A stretch of DNA of 41,615 nucleotides. Origin: Burkholderiales bacterium (GTDB lineage: Bacteria > Pseudomonadota > Gammaproteobacteria > Burkholderiales > Burkholderiaceae_C). The notes beneath the pieces are model-generated. The model saw only the letters and a list, made by a program, of their open reading frames with translations. It was not told the DNA's origin and searched no databases. Of this stretch, positions 4,405-31,262 are shown piece after piece. The stretch lies in the NCBI GenBank assembly GCA_003152055.1, contig PLZH01000123.1, positions 1 to 41,615 of the forward strand. The letters run 5' to 3'. Positions within the stretch are counted from its first letter, which is position 1. Every line of letters begins with the position of its first letter. Position numbers and translations under genes: made by a program.

Positions 4405-5448
4405 TCAGAATGCTGAGAGGTCCGCTTCACCAATGACCGTTCGGAAACTTAGGTCTCTGTCTTTCACGAACTCCAAGAACCCCGCGGCCAGGTCGTCGCT
4501 GTCGGTTGTAATGTGCAGTCCGATCTCAGGCGGACCCGATTCGTATGGATCTTCGCCATCAATTCTCACAAATTCCTCGTGTTCAAGGATGTCAAACTCC
4601 CCTTCAAGGTCGCCACCTTGGTACTCACGTTTCACCTTGCTGTAGAGGACATGCGCCCATTGGGCATCGGTGAACCTACGCGATCGCGCGGAGTCTCGTC
4701 GCTCGTAGAGCATTACCAAGAACTCACGAGTGATTCGAGGAAGTCGAGACAGGCGCCTACCGAGCCTGCGAAGCGCCTTCTTGACATCTTCAACCTCTCT
4801 GTCATTGAGTTCAACGTCGTGTTCGTTTTGCCAGTAGGTAATGAACGCTTGGCCGTCGCCTACCTTGGGCTTGACTCGAATTTCCCACTTGTCATATCCC
4901 GACGTCGGATACTTCCCCTCCTCGTTGGGAACTTCCAGTTCGACTTTAAGCCTGGCAACCTCAGAGCGAACTAGGTGGTGCAACTTCTGCAGGGGCTCTA
5001 TTTGCAAGCTCACGGTCATGCGCGCCAGATTGTCGAGGTCCCAAATCTTGCTTGAGTCGAAGTTGCATTTCGCGCAAAGATCGGGGTCCAAGGTGTAAGA
5101 GCCCTGCTTTTTGCCAACGACGAGTACGACCACGTCGGTGAACTTTGCAGCTTGATCAGCGGTGATCTTTTGGAGCGTTGAATTCACCTTTGCCGAGTCG
5201 GCTCTAGACGTCACTTGTACGCCGAGGTTTGCGGCCTCATCGCCCAGGTCGAGGCCAGGTTCGTTGGATCGATCTTTGTTCAGGTTCTGAAGGTTGCAGC
5301 TCGAGAGGATATTGAGAACGTCCCTAAAGACGTTCTCTGCATACACCGTAAGATCGGTGAGACCCAACCTATTGCGCATGGCCACTTGCTGCCCGATTGC
5401 GGCTAACTCGTCGATCACTTCGCCGATGTAGTGGCCGCGTGTAATCAT
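4405..5448 (-). CDS. SMEK-domain-containing protein
   Basis: 347 aa; N-terminus 'MITRGHYIGEVIDELAAIGQQVAMRNRLGLTDLTVYAENVFRDVLNILSSCNLQNLNKDRSNEPGLDLGDEAANLGVQVTSRADSAKVNSTLQKI' is SMEK-like. Confidence 0.75.
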   Translation of the reverse strand: MITRGHYIGEVIDELAAIGQQVAMRNRLGLTDLTVYAENVFRDVLNILSSCNLQNLNKDRSNEPGLDLGDEAANLGVQVTSRADSAKVNSTLQKITADQAAKFTDVVVLVVGKKQGSYTLDPDLCAKCNFDSSKIWDLDNLARMTVSLQIEPLQKLHHLVRSEVARLKVELEVPNEEGKYPTSGYDKWEIRVKPKVGDGQAFITYWQNEHDVELNDREVEDVKKALRRLGRRLSRLPRITREFLVMLYERRDSARSRRFTDAQWAHVLYSKVKREYQGGDLEGEFDILEHEEFVRIDGEDPYESGPPEIGLHITTDSDDLAAGFLEFVKDRDLSFRTVIGEADLSAF

Positions 5449-5505
5449 GATGGGTTCCTCCTTCTTTTCAGGCCCGCTCGGACATTGGCTGTCGTTTGGG
5501 GACGT

Positions 5506-6780
5506 TTAGCGAAAAGGCGACTTCAAGGTGCTGCCCGTACCTTGGACTACGACGACGCACCAGTGCTTCGCGCGCGTGATGGCGTTATACAGAAGCCTCC
5601 GCTTTCCTTCGTCGTCCTGCGCGACGGTATAGGGCCAGATCACGATCACGCCATCGAACTCTCGGTTCTTAGCTTGATGGACGGTAAGCGCTCGCCGCCC
5701 GTTCTCGGGTCGGTAGGTGCGGGCTCGTTGGGTTGCGAGGATCCTGCGCGTCTGGGACAGTAGATGCTCGTGGTCAAACCATCCGCGCCCAGCCATGTCC
5801 CGCTGCCGGATCACCCAGCGGATCAGCGACTCTTGCGCATTGCACTCCTCCATCTCGCGCAGAAGCGCGAGCACCTCAGACGGTGGCTTGGAGTTGCCAT
5901 ATTCCAGTGACTTGACGGCGTCAAGGAAGGGCGACTCGCCGGACTCCCAGTGGATGCGAAATGGACCTAGCCTCTTGGTGCCACACGCCGTGGTCGACAC
6001 CCTCTCAACCAACCCGGCCGCGTAACCCTGCGATCGCGACGGGGTAATCACCGCGAGGCTGTTGGGGCCTGGTGCCAGGTTCGCGAAATGCAACTTACTG
6101 GCGATCAGTGCAGCCGCCTGATTGGCGCCGGCACACTCGGCGATCTTGAAGCCCGTGCCCTGTCTCGGGGCCATACCGCAACGCAGCGCAGCCGCGGCAT
6201 CCAACAGCGCACTCACCTTAGTTCGCTGCGGCTTGTGTAGTACCTCCGGCTCGCACACCGATGGCAACCATCCAGAAACCGGGCTGGGTCGCAACTCTTG
6301 CCTAAGGCACTGGAAATCGTCAAATGCGATCAACAGACGAACACAGCTAGCGAGTGCCTTTATGAGTCGAAGGCGATGCGGATCGAGGTCCTGAGCCTCA
6401 TCAAGGACGACGAGGGGATATCCGATCCGCAGCCATTCGCCGACAGTCGGACGCTCGACTAGGTCTGCGGATAGCGAGCACTGCGCATCGAAGTCCACCT
6501 CATCCGTTGGCGGTTGACCGATCGCGCTCGCCATCGACTGCCAACGCGAACGTATGGAACGCGCGAAGCCGTCGACTGTCATGCACTCGTATTTGCCGCG
6601 GAGGCCCGGTACGGTCCGAAGCTTCTGCTCCAAACGTTGGCGAGCGCCATGCATGAAAGTTAGACTCAGGATGGACTGGCCTGAGGCAAGCGGCTGCGCC
6701 TGCAATTCCTCTGCCATGCGCTGCAGGAGGCGGTAGGTCTTCCCGTATCCGGCTGCACCGCTCACCGCCCAAACCGTCAT
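5506..6780 (-). CDS. UvrD/Rep-like superfamily 1 helicase (GajB-like)
   Basis: 424 aa; Walker A 'SGAAGYGKTYRL', Walker B 'LVVLDEAQDLDPHRL', 'LLIAFDDFQCLRQ', C-terminal 'LTVHQAKNREFDGVIV...LLYNAITRAKHW'. Confidence 0.8.
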   Translation of the reverse strand: MTVWAVSGAAGYGKTYRLLQRMAEELQAQPLASGQSILSLTFMHGARQRLEQKLRTVPGLRGKYECMTVDGFARSIRSRWQSMASAIGQPPTDEVDFDAQCSLSADLVERPTVGEWLRIGYPLVVLDEAQDLDPHRLRLIKALASCVRLLIAFDDFQCLRQELRPSPVSGWLPSVCEPEVLHKPQRTKVSALLDAAAALRCGMAPRQGTGFKIAECAGANQAAALIASKLHFANLAPGPNSLAVITPSRSQGYAAGLVERVSTTACGTKRLGPFRIHWESGESPFLDAVKSLEYGNSKPPSEVLALLREMEECNAQESLIRWVIRQRDMAGRGWFDHEHLLSQTRRILATQRARTYRPENGRRALTVHQAKNREFDGVIVIWPYTVAQDDEGKRRLLYNAITRAKHWCVVVVQGTGSTLKSPFR

Positions 6781-8591
6781 GGATTGAAGACGCGAATGCG
6801 CAGTGTCTCAAGTTCGTCGTTGTCCGAGAACAAGCTCGTGTCCACTCCCAAGCATTCGGAGGCCATGGCGTTCAACAGTGCCAGAGCTCGCCCGCGTGCG
6901 ATCGTTGAGCCGGCTATCGCCTGCCCGATGGCCTCATATGCCACCCGGTCTTGCTTTAGCCCACCCGCCGCTCTATCCGTCGACTTCAACCGCGCGACGA
7001 GGTCGGCAGTCTTGACTGGCACTCGCAGGATGCCATCGATGGTTTCGAGGACAGCCGGTTCAGCGTCGAGTACCCATCCGAATACGTCTTCGATCGTCCA
7101 CCCGTCCGGCCAGCGCAGAGCACGAGTGGGCGGTGCATGCTTGCCGGCCAGACTCGCAAGGTAAGAGTCGCCAGCGGGATCGCCATCTAGCAAACAGACA
7201 ATCCGAGGATGAAGATCTCTCAAACGTTCATAAGTCGCCACCACTTGGCCGTCCGTGGTGCGAATGACACCAACGTGGGCAAGAAAGTGCGAATCGAAGC
7301 CGGGCTCCCACCGCTGGTGAGCATCGACCGCCATCGCCAAGATGTGAAGCAACTCGACGTCCAATAGCCCTTCAGGAATCAGCAAGCAGTCATGCATCAG
7401 CGCCGTTATGGTGTCGAGCCGATGCAGTTCGAACAGCTTGCGTACCGGGTTAGGGTCGCTAGCCTGTGCCATCGCTGAACTCAACGGGGTCGATATCAAC
7501 TTACCCCCTTGATTGCGTAGGACATGAAGAGCCTTTGGATCGGACATGCCGGCCACGGTGGGCGAGTGTGACGTGATAAACGTCTGCGCCGACAGCGACT
7601 GGAGCCGCTGTACGACTCGGCGCTGAAGTGGCGGAGGGATGTGCAGTTCCGGCTCTTCCAGCGCCATCCAGAAACCCTGGCCGGCGGCGGTTCGTCGGCG
7701 GCCAAACTGGAACAGCAACAGGAGGCTTTGCAGCGAGACTAATCCGGTCCCGTGACGCCTCGCAGGGATCGCTAGATCCGCATCAGCAAACGAAAAGTGA
7801 GGAACCAGCGACTCCATCACGCCGTCGCTGTCAGTCGAGGTCAGCCGCAGCTTGAGTTTCGGCGCCGTCGGAAAAAACCCCTTGAGCTCATCGTTCAGTT
7901 CCTGAACGATCGGCGCCAGTTTCGCATCGGCCTCGACCGGCTGGTCAGGTGCACGTAGCCGATCCCGTTCGCTGAGCACCGCTTGCGACGGCAGCCCGTC
8001 GCCGCTGGTAAGCACACGCCGAAAGAGCTCGCTGCTGAAAGATATGACCCTGTCCCAAGTGCGACTAGCGGGCACAAGAAAGAAACCGATCTCCTTGAGC
8101 AGTCGCGCGGGGATTGTTTGGTATGAATCTTCCGCGAAAACATCGATGGAGTCCTCATCGACAAAGTAGCGCGCTGTCTCTACTTCCAGGCTGGCGCGAT
8201 CGAATCTACCGGCAAAGCCAATTTGGCAGGCAAGTATCGACTTTGTGTTGATAGGCTCGGCTAGCAATGCACCGGTCTCCGGATGGATCCACTTCGGTAC
8301 CGCTCGGTCAGGCCCAAACCAGTCCGGGTGACGTGACGCATCATTGCCTCTGAATCCCACCACTGTGGCCGTGAGCCTGATCCTGTCCACAGGCCCAGGA
8401 TTGCCACCAAAGAAGTCGTGCTCCGTCAGCGCTCGGACCATGCGGTCGCGGCCAAACAGTAGTGCCAGCGCTTCGATGATGGTCGTCTTGCCGCAATTGT
8501 TGGCGCCGATGAACACGTTGTGCTGGTTCAGCGCCAAGTCTCCTTCCCGGACGCCTCTGAAGTTCCGGATGCTCAGTGTCGCCAGTTGCAT
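6777..8591 (-). CDS. OLD-family ATP-dependent endonuclease (AAA ATPase + TOPRIM; GajA-like)
   Basis: 604 aa; Walker A 'GANNCGKTTIIEAL', 'WMALEEPELHIPPPLQRRVV', 'ITSHSPTVAG', TOPRIM 'LLIPEGLLDVELL' and 'IVCLLDGDPAGDSY'. Overlaps the helicase gene by 4 bp. Confidence 0.85.
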   Translation of the reverse strand: MQLATLSIRNFRGVREGDLALNQHNVFIGANNCGKTTIIEALALLFGRDRMVRALTEHDFFGGNPGPVDRIRLTATVVGFRGNDASRHPDWFGPDRAVPKWIHPETGALLAEPINTKSILACQIGFAGRFDRASLEVETARYFVDEDSIDVFAEDSYQTIPARLLKEIGFFLVPASRTWDRVISFSSELFRRVLTSGDGLPSQAVLSERDRLRAPDQPVEADAKLAPIVQELNDELKGFFPTAPKLKLRLTSTDSDGVMESLVPHFSFADADLAIPARRHGTGLVSLQSLLLLFQFGRRRTAAGQGFWMALEEPELHIPPPLQRRVVQRLQSLSAQTFITSHSPTVAGMSDPKALHVLRNQGGKLISTPLSSAMAQASDPNPVRKLFELHRLDTITALMHDCLLIPEGLLDVELLHILAMAVDAHQRWEPGFDSHFLAHVGVIRTTDGQVVATYERLRDLHPRIVCLLDGDPAGDSYLASLAGKHAPPTRALRWPDGWTIEDVFGWVLDAEPAVLETIDGILRVPVKTADLVARLKSTDRAAGGLKQDRVAYEAIGQAIAGSTIARGRALALLNAMASECLGVDTSLFSDNDELETLRIRVFNP

Positions 8592-12013: not shown

Positions 12014-12316
12014 TTGGGCGTCGAAACCGCCGAGAGCAGATCCTTGGTCAATAGAAAGCAGAACGGTCTCGAGGCCTTCGTCGACCTCATCGCACTGGCA
12101 CCATGGTGGGCCGGGGTGAGCTTGGCTGTCGTGAGCTACTTCGTCTTGGGCTCGTTCGCTCATGTAGCGCCGGCGGCGGTCAAGAGCATGGACGAAATGC
12201 CTACGCTTATGGCGATCAGCTACCTCAAAGGTCTCGCTCACCTGGGGCAATTTCTCGTACCCGTTCTCTGTCTCATTGCCGCCATCTTGTCTGCGATCGC
12301 ACGAAAGAGCCGCTAG
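12014..12316 (+). CDS. Small 2TM protein resembling the N-terminal membrane anchor of Mrr-type restriction endonucleases
   Basis: 100 aa 'LEAFVDLIALAPWWAGVSLAVVSYFVLGSFAHVAPAA...LGQFLVPVLCLIAAILSAIARKSR'; no nuclease domain follows in frame; start uncertain. Confidence 0.4.
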   Translation: MGVETAESRSLVNRKQNGLEAFVDLIALAPWWAGVSLAVVSYFVLGSFAHVAPAAVKSMDEMPTLMAISYLKGLAHLGQFLVPVLCLIAAILSAIARKSR

Positions 12317-12357
12317 CTCGCCCGCTTGTCGGAGATCGGCTTTCGGGGGACACGGGC

Positions 12358-12756
12358 ATGACCGACGACGACACGATCGCCCGTTTCGCCAAGGAGCACA
12401 ACTGGCACCCCGATTTCCTGGCGCTTCTAGTGGAATCGAACTGGTGCTGCGTCTACTGCGGGCGGAGCTTCATGGCCGACCATCACTTGTACTTCGCGTT
12501 TACCCATGACCATCTCGTGCCCTCCTCGAAGGACGGCAGCAAGGACGGACAGCACAACCTCGTGGCGGCCTGCGACTCCTGCAACAAGCTCAAGGGTAAG
12601 TGGAATCCTCTCGAGGCGAACCCTGGTCTGACGACCAAAGCGGAACTGCTCAAGGTCTGCCGGGAGTACGTCTCCGCGAGGTTGCTGGACCGCGAGGCGC
12701 GGGTTGGGAAGGCGCGCGCAGCGGCGGAGGCGCTGGGCTTGTGGCTCGCGCCATGA
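12358..12756 (+). CDS. HNH endonuclease
   Basis: 'CCVYCGRSFMADHHLYFAFTHDHLVPSSKDGSKDGQHNLVAACDSCNKLKGKWNP': CxxC, HDHLVP, N, CxxCN/K. Confidence 0.85.
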   Translation: MTDDDTIARFAKEHNWHPDFLALLVESNWCCVYCGRSFMADHHLYFAFTHDHLVPSSKDGSKDGQHNLVAACDSCNKLKGKWNPLEANPGLTTKAELLKVCREYVSARLLDREARVGKARAAAEALGLWLAP

Positions 12757-13091: not shown

Positions 13092-13820
13092 ATGACCCGC
13101 GACGACAAGGTGACGGCAGCGTGCGTGATCGCCGTGATCGTCTTCACCATGGCGGCTCTGGCGTGGCCGCTTTATCCCTTTCCATCCTTGCCCGCCGGCA
13201 AGAACTGGCTAGACGGCATGCAGGCGATCGCAGAGACCGTCAGCGCGTTTTCGACCACCGCTGCCATCATCGTTGGCGCCGTCGTGGTCTATTGGCAGGT
13301 CGGTCGCCAGCACGCGAAGGATGCGGAGAGGGCGCTCGCGGAGGAAGTGCGCCGTCTGAAGATCATGGCAAGTGGCGTCTTCCACTGCCGCGCACTGTGC
13401 CAGCAGATGCTCGATCAAAACAATATCGGCGGGCCAATTTGGGAGCAGCACGGCGCGCTGGAAAGGCAGTCGGAGCTCTTGTCAAAGATCCCCTTGCTCG
13501 ACTTTCCCGACTGGGATGCCGCCTATGCCGTGTCGGATGTGGCTTTGATTACCTCGAAGCTAGGTGAACAAATCGCCGAACGCCCGGGACTCGATATACC
13601 CGCCAACACTCAAAGACGCCGCGAAGAGCATCTGAACGTCGCCGAGAACAATTTCCGCGCAGCCGAAACCATCTTGCGCTACCTGTTGAATGCGCGCGGC
13701 ACGGATGTGCCCCCGGAGCGAGTGAGCCACAACGGCATTGCGTACTGCTCGGCGCCGCTTGAAGACCGGCAGCGCGAAGCAGACACAGCGGTACTGCTCA
13801 CGCAGCTGAAGGCGATATGA
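13092..13820 (+). CDS. 2TM membrane protein with cytoplasmic helical domain, unknown function
   Basis: 242 aa; two hydrophobic segments (AACVIAVIVFTMAALAWPLY; FSTTAAIIVGAVVVYWQV) then charged helical region; overlaps tcmP by 4 bp (ATGA). Confidence 0.65.
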   Translation: MTRDDKVTAACVIAVIVFTMAALAWPLYPFPSLPAGKNWLDGMQAIAETVSAFSTTAAIIVGAVVVYWQVGRQHAKDAERALAEEVRRLKIMASGVFHCRALCQQMLDQNNIGGPIWEQHGALERQSELLSKIPLLDFPDWDAAYAVSDVALITSKLGEQIAERPGLDIPANTQRRREEHLNVAENNFRAAETILRYLLNARGTDVPPERVSHNGIAYCSAPLEDRQREADTAVLLTQLKAI

Positions 13821-14671
13821 GACATCAATTCGTGCTCGCCGATCGCGAGGATCCGCACCCCGATCTGCTGATCGAGAAGGGTCGGCAAGGGAATGGCGTC
13901 GGCGACTGGGTGCCGGCGATGAAGCACATGTACCTCGCCAAGTGGATTGAGGGCACGCGCGAGATGCGCAAGCGGTTTCCCGACCGCGTGCTCGTCGATC
14001 TGTTCTGTGGACCTGGCCGGATTCAAGTCGAAGGCGAAACCCGCACACGGTTGGGCGGCGCGCAGATCGCCTGGCTGCACTCGCAGCTGGACGACACGGC
14101 GCCGTTCACGAAGTGCGTCACGTCAGACATCGATCAAGCTCGCTCGGATGCTTGCGCGCAGCGCCTGCGTGCCTTAGGCGCTCCCGTCGAGCCCCTATGC
14201 GGCGCGGCCGCAGATGTGGTCGACCGCGCGGCACTGCTCGTACCGCCGACCGCGCTGTGCCTGGCTTACCTCGATCCGTACAGCCTCGAATTTCTCTCGT
14301 GGGATGTGATCACGAGGCTCGCGCAGCTGAAGCACGTCGACTTCGCCGTGCACTTCAGCACCTCCGATCTGCGCCGCAACGTGAAGATGGACTTCGAGCG
14401 CGAGGGCAAACGCTTCGACAAGGTCGCGCCCGGCTGGCGCAAAGAGATCGACGTGCAGTCGTTCTTTCGCGGCGACGCGGACGACGAGTTCTTCGACTAC
14501 TGGTGCCGGCAGATCGAATCGCTCGGCTTCACCATCAGCCAACGCTTTCCGCTGATCCGCACGAAGAAGAACGCACCGCTCTATCACCTCGTGTTTTTCA
14601 GCCGTCACGCATCGCCCGTGAGAGTCTGGGGCGACGTGGCTCAGGGCGTGAATCGTGAACTTCCGTTCTAG
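13817..14671 (+). CDS. tcmP: Three-Cys-motif partner protein TcmP
   Basis: 'YLAKWIEGT..', 'VLVDLFCGPGRIQVEGETRTRLGGAQIA', 'ALCLAYLDPYSLEFLSWDVITRLAQLKHVDFAVHFSTSDLRRN'; adjacent to the Gp37/Gp68-type three-Cys protein. Confidence 0.85.
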   Translation: MRHQFVLADREDPHPDLLIEKGRQGNGVGDWVPAMKHMYLAKWIEGTREMRKRFPDRVLVDLFCGPGRIQVEGETRTRLGGAQIAWLHSQLDDTAPFTKCVTSDIDQARSDACAQRLRALGAPVEPLCGAAADVVDRAALLVPPTALCLAYLDPYSLEFLSWDVITRLAQLKHVDFAVHFSTSDLRRNVKMDFEREGKRFDKVAPGWRKEIDVQSFFRGDADDEFFDYWCRQIESLGFTISQRFPLIRTKKNAPLYHLVFFSRHASPVRVWGDVAQGVNRELPF

Positions 14672-15414
14672 GCGACGGCTAGCTCGATCACCGGATACTC
14701 ATTCCACTGCCGACCAGCCAGCTGCCGACCGTTCGCTTTCTTGTTGCGCCGGATGCCGTCGGCACCCCAGGCACCCCATTGCTTGAAGAAGAACGCGACG
14801 CCTTGCCGCTCGGCCTGCACGCGCACGTTCTCAGCCCACTCGGCGGCCATCGGTCGCGCCTTGTGGCCGCTCTCGCCGCCGACGATGACCCAGTGAATGC
14901 CGGCCAGGTCGAGCACGCCCACGTCGCGCAGCAGCGGCTCGACGGATAGAAAGCGCACCGCGGCGTCGATCGAGCGGAGATGTTCGATGCGAGGCACGCC
15001 GTAGCGCTGATCTTCGACCGACACGCCGAGCCAGACGTTTGGCGGGCTCTCGCGATGCGCGAAGAACCGAGCCATGCGCTGCGCTCGCTTCGTCAGGATC
15101 TGGTAGGTGTGCTGCGGCGTGCTCGCGCACACGTCGATCACCTGCTCGACGAAGGCATCCGGCACTCCGACTTGGAAGAGATCAGACATCGAATTGACGA
15201 AGTACGTCGTCGGTGCCCGGCGACGCAGCGGCTGCTCCAGACGCTCCGGGTGAAGCGTCAGCTCGAAGCCGTTTTCATAGCCTGCCGCGCCCATCGCCTT
15301 GAGGCGTCGCGACATCGTCTCTGCATAGCAGTGCTTGCAGCCCGGCGAGATCTTCGTGCAACCGGTGACGGGGTTCCACGTGTGCTCTGTCCACTCGATC
15401 GACGATTCGGCCAT
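14668..15414 (-). CDS. Phage Gp37/Gp68-family (DUF5131) three-Cys-motif protein
   Basis: 248 aa; 'SSIEWTEHTWNPVTGCTKISPGCKHCYAETMSRRL' (CX6CX2C), 'YFVNSMSDLFQ', 'VWLGVSVEDQRYG', 'IHWVIVGGESGHKARP'. Confidence 0.9.
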   Translation of the reverse strand: MAESSIEWTEHTWNPVTGCTKISPGCKHCYAETMSRRLKAMGAAGYENGFELTLHPERLEQPLRRRAPTTYFVNSMSDLFQVGVPDAFVEQVIDVCASTPQHTYQILTKRAQRMARFFAHRESPPNVWLGVSVEDQRYGVPRIEHLRSIDAAVRFLSVEPLLRDVGVLDLAGIHWVIVGGESGHKARPMAAEWAENVRVQAERQGVAFFFKQWGAWGADGIRRNKKANGRQLAGRQWNEYPVIELAVA

Positions 15415-15455
15415 GCGTCACCTCGCGGCGCATTGTGCCGGACGTGTGAGGGCGA

Positions 15456-15683
15456 TCACGACGGCTCGCCGCCCCCTGTCCGGTCGACACGCGGAATGCC
15501 GCGACGCAGCCACGTGATTGCCGCATCAGCTGGCGCGAGCGTGCGCAGCGACTCGTCGTGCCAGAGCTCGGCGGCCGCCTCCTCCAGGCTCGTCGGATCG
15601 GCGTGCGGCCAGTGCTCGCGCAGGCGCCACGCGCATCGTGCGAGCCATTGCACGTCGGCCAAGTTGCCCGCGTATCGGCTCAT
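15456..15683 (-). CDS. Small protein of unknown function, first gene of the putative LexA-controlled unit
   Basis: 75 aa from MSRYAGNLADVQWLARCAWRLREHWPHADP...; start codon 5 bp from the SOS box. Confidence 0.5.
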   Translation of the reverse strand: MSRYAGNLADVQWLARCAWRLREHWPHADPTSLEEAAAELWHDESLRTLAPADAAITWLRRGIPRVDRTGGGEPS

Positions 15684-15688
15684 GGCGA

Positions 15689-15708
15689 TACTGTATATCC
15701 ATACAGTA
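15689..15708. promoter_or_regulatory. Near-consensus LexA (SOS) box
   Basis: TACTGTATATCCATACAGTA: perfect 8-bp arms; contains CTGT-N8-ACAG; two differences from TACTGTATATATATACAGTA. Confidence 0.85.
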
Positions 15709-15721
15709 TTCAGCGCAAGCG

Positions 15722-15922
15722 ATGCCGAGCCCGTCAAATTGCCTCTGTGGATCCGACGAGTTCACCCGCGTGACGGTTCGCCAGAAGAGCGGCGAGCTCT
15801 ACACGACCGAGTTCGTCAGCTGCCGGGCCTGCGGGGTCATGTATCACCGGCCGGACCTGGCCAAGCCGATCGAAGCGATGACGCCCAGCGCCGCGACTAC
15901 CTGCGCCGGATCGGCTGGCTGA
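15722..15922 (+). CDS. Small CxC/CxxC-containing protein, divergent from the SOS box
   Basis: 66 aa 'MPSPSNCLCGSDEFTRVTVRQKSGELYTTEFVSCRACGVMYHRPD', zinc-ribbon-like. Confidence 0.4.
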   Translation: MPSPSNCLCGSDEFTRVTVRQKSGELYTTEFVSCRACGVMYHRPDLAKPIEAMTPSAATTCAGSAG

Positions 15923-19108: not shown

Positions 19109-21007
19109 TCAAGACCGCTTGTCGCCGAACCCTCGCATGGCTGCCAACCTTGCATCACGTTCCGTGGTCAGATATCCCGACGTCGTTCCGATCGACACGT
19201 GACCCAGGTTGTTCTGCACTACCTGAATTGGCACGCCCTTGCCCCCTGGCCGGCCGTTGAGCGCGTGCGAGCCGTGGGTGTGTCGGAACCAGTGCGTGCT
19301 GGCCTTCCTCAGCAGCTTGGCGTCGTCGACGTCCATCGTCGCGGCGCAGCGCTCCAGAACTTCCTTGATCCCCTTGGCCAGTCCCGACGCTGACCATGGC
19401 GTGGCCACGCGGCCTTCGAACCGGGTCAGGATTGCGACATCGCGGTTCGATTCGTGGCGCACGTTCGCGTCCAGCCCGTTGCGCTCGAGCTCGTCTTGCA
19501 GCTCCTCTACCAATCTGGTCGGCACCGGCACCTGACGCAGCTTGTCACCCTTGCCGACGACACTCAGCATCCATCCCGTTTCCTCGGCTCCATTGGGCAG
19601 CCGATAGTCGACCTGCTGCAAGTCGCCGCAGTACGCGCCGGCCATCTCTGCCAGGCGAAGGCCCGTGGCGTAGAGCCAGCGAATCGCTCGCACACGCCGC
19701 CTTCCGAGCGGTTCGTCCGAGAACTCGTCGAGCCGCTCCTGCAGCGCATCCCACTGCCCGAAGGTCAGCGTCCTCTTCGAGCCGAGCGGCCTGGCCTGCT
19801 CGCGCGGCAGCGCCACCCCCGCAAAGGCATTTCCAATCAGGTAGTTCTGGCTGACCAGAAACGCAAAGAGGCTTCGGAGGATCACGATGGACTGCCGCAG
19901 CGCCGAGGAGCTGAGCGGCCCTTCGAGCGGCCGCCAGAGCGGTGACCAGCGCTGGTGGTGGCGCGGTCCGCACCAACGCGCTGGCGGCGCAGCGAGGAAC
20001 CACTTGAAGGCGTTCACGTCCTCGACGGTGAGCGACGACAGCGGCTTGCCGTGCTCAACGATCGCCCAGAGCAGCAGCCGCTCGGCCTCCTTCCGATATG
20101 CGCGATGCGTGGCGGTCCTTCCGGTGCCGTTCGGATCATGCTTCGTCGCGAGCCAGGCTGCGATCGCCTCGTAGTCGTTCTTCGCTTCGAGCAGGCACTG
20201 GTGCAGCGGCGCCCGGAAGCGTCCGTCGCTGCCGTCGAGCTCGGCCGGAAGCAGGAACTTCTCGAAGGGAACGATGGCGGTCGCTCGGGCAACCACCTCG
20301 TCGAGCTGCTTCGGCTGGAGTTCGGTGCGCCTGAGGGCGACGTGGCTGCCGATCCGAATGCCGATCGAGGGCTCATAGAGTCGCAGCCAGTCGAGGATGC
20401 GCGATGCCTTCAGCTCGCCGACCCCGGAGACCGCCGTCCACCAGCGCGCGCCGACGCCGTTGATGCGGGCGACCAGGTCGGCGAGGGTGCGCAGCTTCGC
20501 CTTTTCGAGCCGGAGGGCGATCGACGGCGCGAACCAGGCCGCCACGCCGTCGTCCGGGCCTGGATCCTGGGCGACCAGCTGCTCGAGCCACTGCAGCGCT
20601 TCGAGCTGGCGGCGGATCAGCCGTGCGCGCCGGGACCTGCGCTCGGCGTCGGTCCCCGGACCGTAGGCCTCAAGAAACGCTGCCTGCTGCTCCCGCTCCG
20701 AAAAGTCCTCCAGCCCGCGTTCCTCTGCAAACGCCGCCAGGCTCGGCAGCCCCGGCGTCTCCTGGACCTCGCCCGCATCGATCAGGACCAGCCGAGCCGT
20801 GCCGGGTCGGGCGTTGCGTCGCGCCGCCGCAGCGAACTCGGTACGCATCCGCGCGATCGTCGATCGGACCTTTCGCAGATCCTCGTGCTCGCCTTCGATC
20901 CTCAGGTACCGGTCCCAGCTGGCGCGCAGATCGATGCCCTGGACGACCGCGCGCATGAACGCGAAGTGGCCCGAGGTGAACTTGCGAGGAGTGGTTGCTA
21001 CAGCCAT
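19109..21007 (-). CDS. Tyrosine recombinase (phage-integrase family) with DUF3701-like HhH N-terminal region
   Basis: 'FAPSIALRLEKAKLRTLADLVARINGVGARWWTAVSGVGELKASRILDWL' then catalytic region 'LYATGLRLAEMAGA', 'STHWFRHTHGSHAL', 'VQNNLGHVSIGTTSGYL'. Start at MAVATTPRKF. Confidence 0.9.
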   Translation of the reverse strand: MAVATTPRKFTSGHFAFMRAVVQGIDLRASWDRYLRIEGEHEDLRKVRSTIARMRTEFAAAARRNARPGTARLVLIDAGEVQETPGLPSLAAFAEERGLEDFSEREQQAAFLEAYGPGTDAERRSRRARLIRRQLEALQWLEQLVAQDPGPDDGVAAWFAPSIALRLEKAKLRTLADLVARINGVGARWWTAVSGVGELKASRILDWLRLYEPSIGIRIGSHVALRRTELQPKQLDEVVARATAIVPFEKFLLPAELDGSDGRFRAPLHQCLLEAKNDYEAIAAWLATKHDPNGTGRTATHRAYRKEAERLLLWAIVEHGKPLSSLTVEDVNAFKWFLAAPPARWCGPRHHQRWSPLWRPLEGPLSSSALRQSIVILRSLFAFLVSQNYLIGNAFAGVALPREQARPLGSKRTLTFGQWDALQERLDEFSDEPLGRRRVRAIRWLYATGLRLAEMAGAYCGDLQQVDYRLPNGAEETGWMLSVVGKGDKLRQVPVPTRLVEELQDELERNGLDANVRHESNRDVAILTRFEGRVATPWSASGLAKGIKEVLERCAATMDVDDAKLLRKASTHWFRHTHGSHALNGRPGGKGVPIQVVQNNLGHVSIGTTSGYLTTERDARLAAMRGFGDKRS

Positions 21008-21105
21008 GCGAGGGCGCTTCAGAGTCCTTCGACTGCCGGTGAAACGCGACTGCGGTGCAGGGTCCCGACACGTTTCCGACACGTCGCCGGCGCAAGATTC
21101 GACGC

Positions 21106-21324
21106 ATGGAAAGTCCCACGCTCGCCCGGCAGTCGGTCAGCGCCGACGTCTCCGAGTTCGCCCGCGCCGAGCTCGAGGCCTTCGTCGCGACGATCAAGCG
21201 GCAGCGTCCTTCTGCCTGGTCGCGGGTCGAGCAGCTGCAGCAAGCCTGCAGACGTGAGTCGCCGGCGACAGCGGATGGCCTGAGCCGCTCGGAGCGGGTT
21301 CTGGCGGAGCAGAGCGAGGCGTGA
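21106..21324 (+). CDS. Small hypothetical protein
   Basis: 72 aa, MESPTLARQSVSADVSEFARAELEAFVATIKRQ...; divergent from the integrase. Confidence 0.4.
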   Translation: MESPTLARQSVSADVSEFARAELEAFVATIKRQRPSAWSRVEQLQQACRRESPATADGLSRSERVLAEQSEA

Positions 21325-21326
21325 GC

Positions 21327-21767
21327 TCATCCGGCCGCCACGCCGGCCGAACGCAGACTCGTCAGAAACTTCTCGATCAACGCCTGGTGCAGCGGCGCCA
21401 GCGGGCGCGCGAGCAGCGCTTCGATCGCCGCCACGAGGCGGCTCGTCTGTACCGGGTTGAGCAGTCCCGGGTCGAACTCGCTGAGGGATTCGAGCGCAGC
21501 CAGGGCGACGTCCTGCGGTGCCCGGTCGACCAGCTCCGTCAGGATCTCGATCGCCTCGCCGCGTCTCGCGAAGCCCAGGACTTGGGCGCAGTGCTTTTGC
21601 CAGAGGAGCGGCCGATCGGGCCAGATCACGCGCAGGAGCGCCAGCTCCTCGTCGCTCAGCTTAGCGGCGAACTCCCCGGCGACGACCACGCCGTCATCGG
21701 ACCACGCGTCGCGATCAGCCGCGGCAGAGGCCGACAACGCCTGGTCGAAGTCCTGAAGCGTGGCCAT
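21327..21767 (-). CDS. Hypothetical helical-repeat-like protein
   Basis: 146 aa; alpha-helical composition with several LxxLxxx repeats. Confidence 0.5.
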   Translation of the reverse strand: MATLQDFDQALSASAAADRDAWSDDGVVVAGEFAAKLSDEELALLRVIWPDRPLLWQKHCAQVLGFARRGEAIEILTELVDRAPQDVALAALESLSEFDPGLLNPVQTSRLVAAIEALLARPLAPLHQALIEKFLTSLRSAGVAAG

Positions 21768-21782
21768 TTCTGAGAACTTCGT

Positions 21783-21806
21783 GGATGATAATGTTTATTA
21801 TCATCC
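21783..21806. repeat. Perfect 10-bp inverted repeat with 4-nt loop (candidate operator)
   Basis: GGATGATAAT-gttt-ATTATCATCC, 16 bp upstream of the start at 21767. Confidence 0.7.
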
Positions 21807-22605
21807 AGATGATATCGGTTTAACTCCAGCCATTTGCCGCCATCCTTCAACATCATCGGATTAACGTTGCATGCCCGGTTGGCGATCCTGGCTCAGAGGT
21901 CTCGACCGGCGGCTCCTCGCCGCATATGTCCTCCACGGCTCTCGCGAGAGTATCCAGGAACGCGTGCCATTCCCGTTCTCTGGGATCGTGCGCGTTTCTC
22001 AAAATCGCTGCACCACGGAACGCGCCGGCGAGATCGTTTAAGGGATCACAACGGCGTGTACGTCAGTGAGATCGGGTCCCGCTCGTGACGCATCATCCGG
22101 TCGCGTACGCGGCAGGAAGTGTCTGTCACGTCGACTGCTGTCTCAAGTCGCACGCGCGCCAGCCGAAACAGCCCGATGGTCAGCGCGGTCAGCTCAAGGT
22201 CCACGGTTGCGGCGGCACCCGGCGCGTCCTCACCGGAGACACGCACGCCCAGCCTCGACGCGGAGCTCAGCACCGTGCGGGCTCAGCTCGAGGACTGGGT
22301 GACCTGCCCATCGGCCAAGACTCCCGAGGGCAAGGCCAAGATCAAGGAAGTCACCGCGAAGTTCGACGCCATCAAGGCACAGATCGCGAAGAATGCGAAG
22401 GCGGCAGACGCGCTCGCCGTCGTCGCGGTCGTTCCGCCCCGGCCAGCCAGCCAGCCAAACCCCGCTATTGGAAGCAATATCGACGTCTACGCCTGATTGA
22501 GTTCTCGGGTCAGGCCGGCAACGCCGGCGCGACCGGCTCCCAGGCGGACTGATAGTGCTCGACTCGGAGCCTCCCGCCAGTCGCCGCTTTGCGCCACCGT
22601 GCAAC

Positions 22606-22878
22606 TCACCGCGACGGCGCGACCGGGGCCGGTGCAGGCGCAGTTGCTCGCGGCGTTTGCGCTTGCTGCGCGGCCGCGGCCTTGCGATCCTTCACTGCAT
22701 CTCGGTGACGGTTGATGGCGCAACCAGCAGCTGCGCCGAGAATCGCATGGTGACCGGCCACATGTCCCACTGCGCCGCCCGCAGCGGCGCCCGCAAGACA
22801 ACCACGTGCTTCCGCCTCGCTCGAAAGCAGCAAGGCGCTCCCAGCGATCAAGATGGAAACGATCGAAGTTGATTTCAT
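22606..22878 (-). CDS. Small secreted glycine-zipper-like protein
   Basis: 90 aa; signal peptide MKSTSIVSILIAGSALLLSSEAEA; 'GAAAGGAVGHVAGHHAILGAAAG'. Confidence 0.55.
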   Translation of the reverse strand: MKSTSIVSILIAGSALLLSSEAEARGCLAGAAAGGAVGHVAGHHAILGAAAGCAINRHRDAVKDRKAAAAQQAQTPRATAPAPAPVAPSR

Positions 22879-22937
22879 TGGAAGCCTCCGCGTTGTTTGA
22901 CGAAAGAAGGGGCAGCCGGACGGCCGCCCCTTCACCA

Positions 22938-23444
22938 TCAGTCTGAAACCCGATCCCAGGCGGCGCGAGTCGCCGACTTGGCGTGGTCCCAGCTCATGCG
23001 GGATGAGCCCTTGGCTTGATTCCAGTCGCTCGCGAGACTGCTCTCAGCGTCGCTGAACGACCGGCCTTTGTACTTGCCCCGAGCTTCACCGCCGAGCCGA
23101 TAGGCCGGGGCGTAGTCGTCGTAGGTGTAGTCCTTGCTGTAGTACGGTTGCTTGGCGTAGTTGTCGCGCCAGTAGCGGTCTTCGACCGTCGGGTCGTAGT
23201 GCTCGGCCACCGCCTTGCCCGCCAAGCCGCCGACTACAGCTCCGACCGCTGCACCGACTATTGTCCCGACGGGGCCGGCTGCCGTGCCGACGGCTGCGCC
23301 AGTCGCTGCGGCCGTAGCCGCGCCCGCGGCCACGCCGCCGACCGCTGCTCCAACACCAACGCCAACCGGATGCGCACCCGGCGTCTTGGTGATCGGATCT
23401 CTATTCGCGGGATTGGAAGGATTGGGTGTCTTCAGCTCGTTCAT
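22938..23444 (-). CDS. Glycine-zipper protein of unknown function
   Basis: 168 aa; 'VGAAVGGVAAGAATAAATGAAVGTAAGPVGTIVGAAVGAVVGGLAGKAVAE' then 'EDRYWRDNYAKQPYY'. Confidence 0.65.
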   Translation of the reverse strand: MNELKTPNPSNPANRDPITKTPGAHPVGVGVGAAVGGVAAGAATAAATGAAVGTAAGPVGTIVGAAVGAVVGGLAGKAVAEHYDPTVEDRYWRDNYAKQPYYSKDYTYDDYAPAYRLGGEARGKYKGRSFSDAESSLASDWNQAKGSSRMSWDHAKSATRAAWDRVSD

Positions 23445-23658
23445 TCGATGTCTCCGAGTTCGCTCGTCGCACGAGCAGGAGTCGAAACCTTAGAGGTCGA
23501 CCGGACCGCGCGCAGCCGTCTGGGGCGCCGAGCTCCGGTAGGAAGCATCCGACCTGGCTGTTTGTGGGCATTTAATGCCCAGCGTTGAACCGCCCGCCGA
23601 GCGTCGCCTAGCTGCAGGCGGCGTCCCGGGCGCCGTCCTGAACTCGTCGATGTGAACC

Positions 23659-24744
23659 CTACCGTCCCCGGTCCTTCTCCGGGGGAAGTGCACCCCTGGG
23701 GGTCGAGCCGCCATTGCGCTCTTTCGCCCATGACGCAATCTCTCCTGCACTGCGCCCTTCAGAGATTCGTCGCGCCACGCCGATGGCGAGCTTTCGATCG
23801 TTGATGTCTTCCGATTGGCTCAACACGTTGCAGAGCTGGCGATAAGCATTGATCGTTTGGTTTTCCTTCGCCCTGGCCATCTGCACCGCCTCGCCCTCGA
23901 CGCGCGACTTCCCTATCTGCTCGGGTCGGCGACCCCGCTCCTTCATCTGGCGCGTGGACTGCTTTTCTCCTCGCTCGCGCTTTAGGCGTTGCAGCCGCTT
24001 GGTCGCGGTGGCCTCGATGCCGTTGGCGTTGAGCGCCTCCGCAAAGCCTTCCCGCCAGCGAACCAAGACCTCTTTTCGCGGATTGAGCCTGCGGCCGTTC
24101 TCGTCGTTTCGAGCTTTGACCGCCAGGTGAACGTGCGGATGCCTCGAAGGTTCTGGATCTGGATCGGTGTCGAAGGTGTGCATGGCCATGACGTATTGAT
24201 GACCCCCGAACTCCTTCGCCGCAAAGTCGCGTACCGCCCGCTTGACGGCCAGCTCGTCGGTTCCTTCGGGCATGGAAAAGACAACGTGAAAAGCCTCCCT
24301 GAGCTTTCCCTCCTCGTCGCCGATGAAAGCACCCCCGTACTGCCAGTCGTCTCTGAGTGACTGCAGCGCCTCTTTGCCCAGAAGGACGTTGCCCTCCTGG
24401 TCCTCGAGCGGGATCTCGCCCTTTCTCGAGATGTAGTCGAGGTGCCGCTTGATCTGCCGCATACCCCGCGGCGCGCCGGGCGTGATCTTGACCATGACCT
24501 CGGGGGTGCGCTTGGCGATCGCCCCGAGCTTGCTGCGGATCCGCGCCGCGGAGGCGGCGATTTCGCCCGGGCCGCCGCGCTTGAGCACACCACCTTCGGC
24601 CTTCCCCGTCGTCTGGCCGAGACCTGCGACCGAAGCCCGGCTCTTGCCTGCCGCGATGGTGCTGACTGATCCTTGGTTGAAGAGCGCTGCGCCCCAGTCG
24701 ACGAGCATGCCGTCGACGTACTCCTTGCCGCCGTTGCCGCTCAT
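23659..24744 (-). CDS. MOBP/VirD2-like relaxase
   Basis: 'VMVKITPGAPRGMRQIKRHLDYISRKG', 'REAFHVVFSMPEGTD', 'RHPHVHLAVKARNDENGRRLNP' (HxHxH-like metal motif). Start MSGNGGKEYVDG overlaps the MobC-like stop by 4 bp. Confidence 0.8.
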   Translation of the reverse strand: MSGNGGKEYVDGMLVDWGAALFNQGSVSTIAAGKSRASVAGLGQTTGKAEGGVLKRGGPGEIAASAARIRSKLGAIAKRTPEVMVKITPGAPRGMRQIKRHLDYISRKGEIPLEDQEGNVLLGKEALQSLRDDWQYGGAFIGDEEGKLREAFHVVFSMPEGTDELAVKRAVRDFAAKEFGGHQYVMAMHTFDTDPDPEPSRHPHVHLAVKARNDENGRRLNPRKEVLVRWREGFAEALNANGIEATATKRLQRLKRERGEKQSTRQMKERGRRPEQIGKSRVEGEAVQMARAKENQTINAYRQLCNVLSQSEDINDRKLAIGVARRISEGRSAGEIASWAKERNGGSTPRGALPPEKDRGR

Positions 24745-25319
24745 TCGATCCTCCAGCGTTCGATGTTGGCAGCAAGGACTCTGGAGACGGCTGCGGTCTG
24801 GTCCTTGATGGCCGCGTCGATCGACTCGAACAGGTCGACTCTGAAGCGTTGGCGCTCGTGAGGCGCGATGTTCAGCGCCTTGGTGACCTGGTTCAGATTT
24901 CGACCGATGGCGCGCAGGGCCGTGGTCGCCTGCAGGAGAGCCTCGAGCTCGGACTGACCGATTTGCGGCTCTTGCGTGAGGTGGCCGCGGACTAGCGCGA
25001 CAACCCATCGGCTCGGCGTCATGGAGGCCGAGCCGGCTCTTTGCATAACTGCGCGGAGTTCCGACGCGGTGAGCCTCACGGTGATGCGCCGAGCGCCCGG
25101 CTCGCCGGGGGCGATTGATTGAAGGGGGGCGCTGAAAGCAGCGCCGGGAACCGCGGCAGCGGTGGCGTCGCCACTCGTCGTTAGCCGTTGAACGATGGCC
25201 CGGAAGGCAGCGCCTTGAGTGACTGCGTTTCGTCGGCACCAGTCGAGCCACACCTCTTTGAGACCAAGGAGGTCGATGGAGATGGTCGACGGCCGCTTCT
25301 GCATCAGCTTTTCAGTCAT
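24741..25319 (-). CDS. MobC-like relaxosome accessory protein
   Basis: 192 aa; 'RRITVRLTASELRAVMQRAGSASMTPSRWVVALVRGHL', 'ATTALRAIGRNLNQVTKALN'. Confidence 0.7.
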   Translation of the reverse strand: MTEKLMQKRPSTISIDLLGLKEVWLDWCRRNAVTQGAAFRAIVQRLTTSGDATAAAVPGAAFSAPLQSIAPGEPGARRITVRLTASELRAVMQRAGSASMTPSRWVVALVRGHLTQEPQIGQSELEALLQATTALRAIGRNLNQVTKALNIAPHERQRFRVDLFESIDAAIKDQTAAVSRVLAANIERWRIE

Positions 25320-25377
25320 TCAGAGAGCCCCCAACAGAAGCGCGGAGCAGCGGCAGTAATACACGCGCCGCCGCGCG

Positions 25378-25388
25378 CCTATCCTGCC
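25378..25388 (+). other. oriT: Candidate oriT nick region (RP4/IncP-like)
   Basis: cctATCCTGcc directly upstream of mobC/relaxase; RP4 nic is CCTATCCTG^CC. Confidence 0.5.
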
Positions 25389-25409
25389 TTCTCTTCAAAC
25401 GCTCGGGCG

Positions 25410-25428
25410 GTCTTCATACTATGAAGAC
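25410..25428. repeat. Perfect inverted repeat GTCTTCAT-act-ATGAAGAC in the mob/parB intergenic region
   Basis: 8-bp arms with 3-nt spacer, between the putative nick site and the parB 3' end. Confidence 0.6.
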
Positions 25429-25479
25429 TCTCGGGCATTGCGTGCGCTGCCTTCTTCTCCAAAGTTGGCCTCGGATTAA

Positions 25480-26436
25480 CTACGCGGTCGACTCGGTTAG
25501 CTGTGACATGGTCACTGCGATGCATGGCACTTCGGCTTGTGCGCCGTCGTCTTCGTAACGCACATGGACCAGGCCAGAGTTCGTCGGACGAAGAGTCAAG
25601 ACCACGATGACGTCGCGTCCACGATGCTTGCCAAGAAGGCGTGGCTTCCTGATGCGCATTGGATCTTCAGTCGCGAGGGGCGTTTTCTCCGAAGATGGCG
25701 GGTGAACTCCTTTGCGCCTGGTCTCAACCGGAGCTCCCTCCTCGACGACGCGCTCTGAGCGGGAATCTGCACCCTGATTCTTTGGTTCAGCTGACGTCGT
25801 CTGGATCTGGGCTGTCAGTGTGTCGAGAAAGCTGGCAGTCAGCTCGCTGCCGGCAACACGTTCTTCGACGACGCCCGGTGCCTGGGAGTGAAGCAAGCTC
25901 AAGCGGTAAAGGTATTGAGGGCTGCGACTTCTGCCGCAGCGATATAGATCCTTGATGAAAGGCTGGCCTTCTACAAGGACAAGCAGCGTGGTGATCGTGC
26001 TGGCCGTCAGGCCCAGCCTCCTCGCAATTTCCGCCTTTGAATCCCCCGCCTGCATTCGCTTGGCGATGAAATTCGCCAGCTCGAGAGGCTCCAGGCTCTT
26101 GCGTCTTTCGTTCTCGCTGACCTGCGCGTATTCATCCCATTGCCGCGCATCGGTCGACAGCACGTACGGGACAGAGCCGAGATCCAATTTCTTCGCTGCC
26201 CGATAGCGCCTGGCACCGAACCGGATGCGAAGCATGCCGGTCTTCGTTTTCACGACAACGATGGGCTGCAGGATTCCTCGCTCTCGAATGTCTTCGACGA
26301 GCTCCTCGAAGCCGGAGCCTTCGATTTCCGTGCGAGGCTGCTCCGGGTCTTCCTCAAAGGAGGAAAGCGGCGCCCTGGCCGGCTCGCCAGGAAGCAACGC
26401 CGGCCCTTCGAGCCCTGAAAGATCAAGCCTGGCCAT
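25480..26436 (-). CDS. ParB/KorB-like partition protein
   Basis: 318 aa; 'FEELVEDIRERGILQPIVV...IRFGARRYRAAKKL', HTH 'SKAEIARRLGLTASTITTLLVL', KorB-like C-terminal 'RDVIVVLTLRPTNSGLVHVRYEDDGAQAEV'. Confidence 0.85.
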   Translation of the reverse strand: MARLDLSGLEGPALLPGEPARAPLSSFEEDPEQPRTEIEGSGFEELVEDIRERGILQPIVVVKTKTGMLRIRFGARRYRAAKKLDLGSVPYVLSTDARQWDEYAQVSENERRKSLEPLELANFIAKRMQAGDSKAEIARRLGLTASTITTLLVLVEGQPFIKDLYRCGRSRSPQYLYRLSLLHSQAPGVVEERVAGSELTASFLDTLTAQIQTTSAEPKNQGADSRSERVVEEGAPVETRRKGVHPPSSEKTPLATEDPMRIRKPRLLGKHRGRDVIVVLTLRPTNSGLVHVRYEDDGAQAEVPCIAVTMSQLTESTA

Positions 26437-26438
26437 CC

Positions 26439-27239
26439 TCAGATCTCCATCGCCATCTGGCGCTCAACGGCCTCAAAACTCAACCTGACTTCGCGCAGCG
26501 CCTCGCGCGCCGAGGTCTTCTTCATGTCTCCAAGGTAGGCGCCCTCGGCCTGCGCTTCGGCAATCGCCGTCCGCGTGGGGATGCTGGCAAAGTCGTGCGC
26601 AGCAGGACCGGTGCTGATGAGCAGCTTTGCGTGCTCCTGGATCAACGCAATGAAGTTCTTCTTCTGGAACGGCGTCGGCTCGACCATGTTGGGCAACAAG
26701 CCGATCAGCCTGAGCTTGGGGTTGAAGCGGCGCTGGATGTTGTAGAGGCCGTACCTGGCATGGCCTAGCAGCGCCCGGATGCCCTCGATCGCTTCCTGAT
26801 TGAGCTCGATCGGCGAGAGCACGTACTGACTCAAGACAAGCGCCATCGCATATCGGATGTCGGGATTCGGGTTGGTATCGATCAGGCAGTAATCGAACGC
26901 GTCGGCCGCGTTCTCGAGGAAGTCCTGAAGGTTGTTGGTGAAGCCGTTGTGCAGCTCGACTCGACGCTCGAGGCCGCTGAGGGTCTCGTCGCCAGGCACA
27001 AGCACAAAGGAAGACTCGGGAGCGAGTGGCAGCTCGGTGGCTTCGAGGAGCTCAGTGGTGGTGAACGGCGCCACCGTGACCTTTGAATTCAGCGAAAGTG
27101 CGCGCGAAGAGTTCCGCTGGTGATCCAGGTCGATGAAGAGGACCCGCTTGGCCTTGCAGACCAGGTAGTGGGCGAGCTGGCAAGCCAGCGCGCTTTTCCC
27201 CACGCCGCCCTTCTGGTTGGCAAGGACGAGGGTTTTCAT
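26439..27239 (-). CDS. ParA/IncC-like partition ATPase
   Basis: 266 aa; 'MKTLVLANQKGGVGKSALACQLAHYL', 'RVLFIDLDHQRNSSRAL', 'FDYCLIDTNPNPD'. Confidence 0.9.
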   Translation of the reverse strand: MKTLVLANQKGGVGKSALACQLAHYLVCKAKRVLFIDLDHQRNSSRALSLNSKVTVAPFTTTELLEATELPLAPESSFVLVPGDETLSGLERRVELHNGFTNNLQDFLENAADAFDYCLIDTNPNPDIRYAMALVLSQYVLSPIELNQEAIEGIRALLGHARYGLYNIQRRFNPKLRLIGLLPNMVEPTPFQKKNFIALIQEHAKLLISTGPAAHDFASIPTRTAIAEAQAEGAYLGDMKKTSAREALREVRLSFEAVERQMAMEI

Positions 27240-29926: not shown

Positions 29927-31258
29927 TCAGGCCCGCACCCGGGGCATCTCGTCCCAGCGCGTCGTGTACCGCGGGGACCGCCGCTCCTGCCTGGTCGACC
30001 AGCTGCGCACCTCGTTCGAGTTGCTCACCTGCAAGGCGCTGCCGATCCGCACCGAGTCCCGGCCGAAACGTCGGTTCAAGCTGTCCATCGCCTGCATGAG
30101 CGCCGCGCGATCGCGCGGCCGGGCCTTGACCCCCTCTTCGGCGTCGGCAAACAGGTCGAGTTCGCCCTGGTGCTGCCCGGCGGGCTGAAGATCCACCAGC
30201 ATGACGCCGGCCTTGGCGTAGTTGAAGCCGGTGCGGTAAGCCCCCGTCGCCGCTTGCACGGCGGCGCCGACCAGGAGTCGGGAGTCGGCCGTCGGCCGGA
30301 TCAGGGGCACCGTCACACTCGCACTGTGTTGCTGATCGTTCTGCCGGAACGCACTCGTCGTGAAGAAGACGTTCACGGCGCCGGCGGCGCCGTCCTGCTG
30401 GCGCAACCGCTCCGCCGCCCGGGCGGCGAACTCGCTGACCGCTTCCACAATACCCGACAGTTCGGTAACCGCCTTGCCGAAGGAGCGCGAGACCAGGATC
30501 TGATGCCTGGCCGCCGGCGCGTCGTCGAGGTCCATGCACGAAGTGCCGCGCAGTTCGAGCACGGTCTTCTCCAGGACGACGCTGAACTGTTTGCGCAGCG
30601 TCGCAGTGTCGCAGCGCACGAGGTCGAGCACGGTGCGCACGCCGGCGTCGCCGAGTCGGGCGCCGATGCGCTGTCCGACGCCCCAGATGTCGCCTACCTC
30701 GGTGGCAGCAAAGATCTGCTCAAGCTCGTTATTGCTCAGGGTGCCGAAGTTGCAGACTTGCGCCAGGTCCGCGGGGTAGGTGCCCGGCTTGCGGTCGGCG
30801 GTCTTCGCGACGTGGTTGGCGAGCTTGGCCAGGGTCTTGGTGAGGCCGAAGCCCACGCTCGTGGGCAGTCCGGTCTCGCGCAGGACGTCGGCGCGCATGG
30901 CCCGGCCAATCGCCACGAGGTCGCCGCGCACGCCGGCGAAGTCCAGGAACGACTCGTCGATCGAATAGATCTCCTGTCGCGGCGCGAAGCGCGCCTCGAT
31001 GGCCATCATTCGGCTGGACATGTCGCCGTAGAGCTCGAAGTTGGCCGAAACCGCGATCAGGCCGGCCGAACGCTCGAGGTGGCGCACCTGGAACCAGGGC
31101 TGCGCCATTTTTACGCCAAGGTCCTTGGCCTCGTTGCTGCGCGCGATGCAGGCGCCATCGTTCGACGACAGCACGACGACCGGCCGGCCGGCCAGTCGCG
31201 GCGCGAAGACGCGCTCACAGCTGACGTACATGTTGTTGGCGTCGACGAGCGCAAACAC
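29927..31258 (-). CDS. umuC: Translesion DNA polymerase V subunit UmuC
   Basis: 443 aa from GTG (VFALVDANNMYVSCERVF); 'YSIDESFLDFAG', 'GLPTSVGFGLTKTLAKLAN', 'WGVGQRIGARL'. Directly follows umuD. Confidence 0.9.
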   Translation of the reverse strand: MFALVDANNMYVSCERVFAPRLAGRPVVVLSSNDGACIARSNEAKDLGVKMAQPWFQVRHLERSAGLIAVSANFELYGDMSSRMMAIEARFAPRQEIYSIDESFLDFAGVRGDLVAIGRAMRADVLRETGLPTSVGFGLTKTLAKLANHVAKTADRKPGTYPADLAQVCNFGTLSNNELEQIFAATEVGDIWGVGQRIGARLGDAGVRTVLDLVRCDTATLRKQFSVVLEKTVLELRGTSCMDLDDAPAARHQILVSRSFGKAVTELSGIVEAVSEFAARAAERLRQQDGAAGAVNVFFTTSAFRQNDQQHSASVTVPLIRPTADSRLLVGAAVQAATGAYRTGFNYAKAGVMLVDLQPAGQHQGELDLFADAEEGVKARPRDRAALMQAMDSLNRRFGRDSVRIGSALQVSNSNEVRSWSTRQERRSPRYTTRWDEMPRVRA

Positions 31259-31262
31259 GACT

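Follow-up and report, generated by a model that had tools for sequence, protein, structure and literature searches.

A DUF5131/TcmP gene pair beside a probable LexA operator in a Burkholderiales genome: a candidate SOS-inducible module for nucleic-acid repair or modification

The three-Cys proteins of the DUF5131 family (PF07505) and the TcmP proteins (TIGR04474) are a known pair. No description of LexA control of this pair was found in the open-access literature searched. The nearest solved fold to DUF5131 is that of the spore photoproduct lyase (SPL), to which SplB is related (PF20903, TIGR03886). SOS regulation of SplB has been described for alpha- and beta-Proteobacteria (PMC3323433) and for Bacteroidetes (PMC8565304), and SplB has been linked to SOS operons (PMC3765255). 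A noncanonical betaproteobacterial LexA motif has also been published (Sanchez-Alberola 2015, as cited in PMC8565304). Another relative is the radical SAM mobile pair protein A (TIGR04471), a mobile-element-associated family that is homologous to DUF5131 (2.5e-24). Further, two phage-defence candidates of PADLOC, PDC-M30 and PDC-M41, have the same two-gene composition as the pair described here.

The DNA analysed in this work, referred to as the window, is a stretch of 41,615 nucleotides from a Burkholderiales bacterium (contig PLZH01000123.1). In it, a DUF5131 (Gp37/Gp68) protein of 248 residues is encoded on the minus strand at 14668-15414, and TcmP, a class I methyltransferase-like protein, on the plus strand at 13817-14671. 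Both proteins match their families, and their adjacency is conserved in most loci. The two genes are convergent and meet at their stops, as the sequence-only reading of this DNA had noted; the overlap is 4 bp, on the palindrome CTAG (14668-14671). A tail-to-tail arrangement of the pair was also seen at four other loci (L108, L110, L111 and L112), in three of which the stops overlap. The arrangement is thus conserved across Proteobacteria, Actinobacteria and a Gordonia phage. The gene of a 75-aa ORF (15456-15683, minus strand) precedes that of DUF5131 and belongs to a small Burkholderiales family; in L031 (60% over 47 aa) and in L028, a homologue of it stands between the LexA box and the DUF5131 gene. 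The start of tcmP is overlapped by 4 bp by the end of a 242-aa ORF directly before it (13092-13820, plus strand), which has a predicted hydrophobic N-terminus. This ORF has no family match and no homologue in the fetched relatives, and it is probably not a part of the system.

At 4405-8591, on the minus strand, a SMEK-domain protein, a UvrD-like helicase and an OLD/GajA-like ATPase follow in a row as a Gabija-like defence cluster, and at 12307-12756 (plus strand) lies a gene for an HNH endonuclease similar to PtuB of Septu, with no obvious PtuA adjoining it. On the other side, 19109-27239 of the minus strand encodes a tyrosine recombinase with DUF3701, a MobA-type relaxase, a KorB-like ParB and ParA. 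With these genes, the window includes part of a plasmid or an integrative element.

The sequence TACTGTATATCCATACAGTA at 15689-15708 is an exceptional LexA box. It has no mismatch to the LexA pattern, and when the window was shuffled by dinucleotide, none of the 100 shuffles matched that pattern at three or fewer mismatches. With a matrix built from E. coli LexA sites only, it scores 26.4, against 14-21 for the host lexA, recA, imuA and umuD sites. The first gene under the box is the 75-aa ORF, whose start (15683) is 5 bp away, and the box sits between this ORF and a divergent 66-aa Zn-ribbon-like ORF (15722-15922, plus strand; weak TFIIS Zn-ribbon match, 0.022), for which no homologue was found among plasmids. 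Thus, the earlier claim of a near-consensus box, 5 bp upstream of a 75-aa ORF and followed on the same strand by DUF5131, was borne out by the shuffles as well as by the ORF coordinates. The loose form CTGT-N8-ACAG, with one mismatch allowed, occurs 12 times in the window against 10.9 expected, which is the level of chance, and across the host genome it gave fewer matches than its reversed-pattern control. Loose scanning was therefore dropped, and only scored 20-mers were used. The distinctive feature at 15689-15708 is the full 20-mer and not the loose pattern. As TcmP sits outside the unit controlled by the box, direct induction at this locus would reach the DUF5131 arm only.

The host is equipped with LexA (225 bits) and RecA. 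The lexA promoter carries GACTGGATGAAAATACAGGG and GGCTGGATAAATATTCAGCG, the recA promoter carries TACTGTACAAACATCCAGCT, and imuA (NF033429, above cut-off) carries TACTGTATAAACGTACAGTC. A pattern that fits the host SOS operators, CTGKATNNNNRTMCAG, was matched at seven places in the 5.36-Mb genome: lexA, recA, imuA, the umuD gene of the window, the DUF5131 site and two further sites, both GC-rich and apparently chance matches. Its reversed control had no match in the same genome. One motif is common to the host operators, and the DUF5131 site is its best match. The starts of imuA and of the 75-aa ORF, read by eye, have a common layout, TTGCGnnGAATACTGTAT-N4-nTACAGT-N6-ATG. The operator at the DUF5131 locus agrees with those of host lexA, recA, imuA and umuD, and the SOS control proposed by the sequence-only reading is strongly supported at the level of sequence; regulation by LexA is very probable here. 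The window has a second SOS site, TACTGGATGGATGTCCAGCT at 31697-31716 (minus strand), found as a match to the host pattern at the start of umuD (31266-31706, minus strand; S24 peptidase and Pol V subunit; NF007621, 130 bits against a cut-off of 110). The gene of the Y-family polymerase umuC (PF00817 1.5e-32, DUF4113 1.5e-20) lies at 29927-31324 on the same strand. Together with its own box, umuDC forms a second SOS unit (29927-31716, minus strand), some 15 kb away from the box of DUF5131.

Recurrence of the box was examined at 80 homologous DUF5131 loci from other genomes, which amount to 800 kb; a local profile served to find TcmP, and all 66 aligned members match TIGR04474. Upstream sites (-1300 to +10) scoring at least 15 were found in 22 of the 80 loci, where the remaining sequence of these loci would lead one to expect 0.9 and shuffled sequence 0.4. 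In 18 loci, a host-type LexA box lies no more than 350 bp upstream of the leading gene, be it DUF5131 or tcmP. Put differently, 18 of the 28 LexA-like sites in the 800 kb fall in the 3.5% of sequence that is so placed (binomial 5e-20, a value that ignores relatedness), and 12 of the 18 are within 60 bp. L085 and L096 are near-copies of each other. The box tracks the leading gene: it stands before tcmP if tcmP leads and before DUF5131 if DUF5131 leads. A quick DUF5131 tree requires 11 changes to account for the host-type boxes, which are spread over several separate lineages. An E. coli-type operator was present in the lexA region of 16 of the 17 hosts tested (15 score above 16 and one is weak, at 12.4), the exception being L052 with a score of 7.4. 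Control loci of AAA_15 had a LexA-type site in 0 of 30 cases.

In a class-wide sample, DUF5131 was found in 31 of 369 genomes, and about three of some 25 other usable loci had an operator: a well-placed host-type box in L178 and L186, and the second operator type, described below, in L189 (reverse-strand positions were derived manually). No such operator was present in the copies examined from pCAR1-type plasmids. The 'site-specific integrase' genes upstream in these plasmids were considered as TcmP and rejected; they are genuine tyrosine-recombinase relatives. Motifs of Bacteroidota (CTAA-N5-TTAG and others), Verrucomicrobia and Geobacter showed no enrichment near the pair, and Actinobacterial DUF5131 copies had no perfect CGAAC-N4-GTTCG box upstream. 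The Alphaproteobacterial direct repeat GAAC-N7-GAAC was also rejected, as its matches at +18 to +27 fall within the conserved first part of the DUF5131 coding sequence. By these operators, LexA-type control appears to be recurrent but not universal, a minority trait that is enriched among near relatives of the DUF5131 of the window.

A different operator, the exact palindrome CGAAC-N4-GTTCG, occurs upstream of the pair in eight loci (L059, L060, L062, L065, L068, L071, L079 and L082), mostly as TACCGAACGATCGTTCGGTA. A divergent S24/LexA-like gene is present beside the operator in all eight and at no other genome locus. The eight linked repressors retain the AG cleavage site together with the Lys and the GDSM Ser, and they match Peptidase_S24, with LexA just below the cut-off. 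Across the eight genomes, the AT-centred operator, CGAACG(A/T)(A/T)CGTTCG, is essentially confined to the repressor loci; one further AT-centred site was found in G026. In G021, a second repressor copy adjoins what looks like a toxin-antitoxin pair. The repressor-type loci belong to one DUF5131 clade, in which they account for eight of the 11 members, and on a Comamonas plasmid an S24 repressor gene directly precedes DUF5131. These loci would represent a second, independent mode of control by a dedicated and, as predicted, self-cleaving LexA-like repressor. A search for LexA boxes upstream of homologues, which had been suggested as a check, came out in favour at 18 of 80 loci with the host-type box and eight more with a dedicated repressor; an absence of the box from homologous loci, which was to count against the idea, does not hold for many of them.

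The DUF5131 protein matches PF07505 with 362.9 bits against a cut-off of 28.9 (E 1e-108) and has GCTKISPGCKHCYAE. The family is strongly conserved, with a mean column identity of 68% across phyla, and the cysteines C19, C26 and C29 (CX6CX2C) are invariant in 78 sequences. In a Foldseek search of the PDB with its AlphaFold2 model (pLDDT 90), spore photoproduct lyase took all of the top six places (E 2e-4 to 8e-4), with a TM score of 0.51-0.57 and an rmsd of 5 at TM 0.57. The model has the SPL-like partial TIM-barrel of radical-SAM enzymes. The radical-SAM-like nature ascribed to the protein by the sequence-only reading thus stands at the level of the predicted fold, where the lyase is the best PDB match. 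At the level of sequence, the profile-profile comparison with SPL relatives was not significant (probability 0.3%), though the alignment was collinear; DUF5131 did not match the SPL family PF20903, and a sequence search of the PDB with the DUF5131 and TcmP profiles gave nothing significant.

TcmP, which adjoins the three-Cys protein, matches TIGR04474 with 136 bits against a cut-off of 53 (2.2e-39). Its AlphaFold2 model (pLDDT 90) has 188 PDB matches at E<=0.001, those listed being mostly methyltransferases such as CmoA, RlmJ and Trm1. With its DxFxGxG-like and LDPY motifs, the protein is predicted to have the Rossmann fold of class I SAM methyltransferases, including a SAM motif and motif IV. 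Its sequence varies much more than that of DUF5131 (20% against 68% mean column identity), a combination of conserved catalyst and variable partner that would be in keeping with TcmP setting the target specificity. L085 and L096 each have another TcmP-family gene behind the first; the one in L085 (L085:5435-6544) ends in a GMT-like wHTH domain (PF22560).

From the operators, it appears that the DUF5131/TcmP pair is probably turned on by DNA damage. SOS control alone does not prove repair. The best reading, to which we give about an even chance, is that of a mobile or accessory SOS-inducible module for the repair or modification of nucleic acid. In undamaged cells, LexA would block the promoter. 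Upon DNA damage, active RecA would bring about the self-cleavage of LexA, and the 75-aa ORF and DUF5131 would be expressed. DUF5131 may then act as an SPL-like radical-SAM enzyme, with a putative [4Fe-4S] cluster on C19, C26 and C29 that cleaves SAM, and direct its radical chemistry at a base in DNA (or RNA). TcmP, from the convergent unit, may select or methylate the same target, a division of labour that we infer. A more specific form of this reading, which we put forward tentatively and consider rather unlikely as a whole, is an unrecognised class of SOS-inducible, mobile systems for DNA-lesion reversal (or base editing). Such a system would consist of an SPL-fold radical-SAM enzyme with a different Cys motif and a methyltransferase partner, acting on a lesion or modified base that is not handled by SplB or photolyase, and would have acquired LexA control repeatedly, through the host LexA or a dedicated linked LexA-like repressor.

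The same promoter could also serve defence. Phage attack that damages DNA or stalls replication would raise the SOS response and let DUF5131 accumulate; together with TcmP, it would then modify or inactivate phage or host nucleic acid. Searched against PADLOC-DB, DUF5131 hits PDC-M30B/M41B at about 1e-109 and most TcmP proteins hit PDC-M30A/M41A, but the TcmP of the window matches PADLOC models weakly (1.4e-6 at best). Of 100 P. aeruginosa strains, 32 were predicted to carry PDC-M30, and 68.8% of these carriers were resistant to phage (PMC10855318); however, the PDC systems are candidates from genomic embedding and are untried experimentally (PMC10855318). Nothing was found on SOS control of PDC-M30 or PDC-M41. 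The pair lies between the integrase and the immunity repressor in Gordonia phage Fairfaxidum, whereas in phages such as TChen, DUF5131 is located among genes of the replication region. The Gabija-like and SMEK genes of the window are 6-10 kb away, yet the neighbours of the boxed loci are heterogeneous, with type I specificity subunits as the commonest defence match (3 of 138 proteins). We consider an anti-phage module raised by DNA damage rather unlikely.

Still less probable is that a plasmid or ICE uses the host SOS response to time nucleic-acid modification at transfer or excision, with no role in repair or defence. The recombinase, relaxase, ParA and KorB-like ParB of the window, and the DUF5131 relatives on plasmids, beside integrases or in temperate phages, would suit such timing, but many boxed loci are among ordinary chromosomal genes, and the conserved partner is TcmP rather than transfer genes. 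Lastly, the box might control only the 75-aa ORF, the divergent 66-aa ORF or both, leaving DUF5131 unrelated to it. A homologue of the 75-aa ORF on a Variovorax plasmid (L144:3947-4192) does have a LexA box directly upstream with DUF5131 not listed nearby, and the 75-aa family is itself a candidate for an unannotated small SOS protein. At the window locus, however, the gap from the 75-aa ORF to DUF5131 is only 41 bp (15415-15455), with no terminator found in it, and in many other loci the box directly precedes DUF5131 or tcmP, by 33-54 bp. We regard a box without a bearing on DUF5131 as very improbable.

Returning to the module for repair or modification, LexA control by two types of operator, taken with the SPL-like fold, would narrow the role of DUF5131/TcmP to the DNA-damage response. 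The pair is widespread, and its recurrent LexA control, predicted as it is from operators, makes it directly testable. If true, a second radical-SAM family would be added to SOS repair, or else a candidate defence system would be shown to be switched on by DNA damage. Of the described systems, PDC-M30 and PDC-M41 differ in being no more than candidates and in the divergence of the window TcmP from their models. The DUF5131 protein of the window scores 86 bits where TIGR04471 requires 355, and so falls outside that family. Nor is it an SPL, because the hydrogen donor of SPL, Cys140 (AACTSD), corresponds to the invariant Ser75 (VNSMSD) when the two are aligned by motif and not by superposition; the Cys spacing of SPL and a family-level sequence match are also absent. 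The cluster motif is CX6CX2C in DUF5131 and CX3CX2C in SPL, and DUF5131 has a partner in TcmP, which SPL does not. What DUF5131 shares with SPL is a Cys-rich start, an 'SD' after the next core strand and a later 'TK', all in collinear order, and, as its operators suggest, the LexA control that is also seen for SplB.
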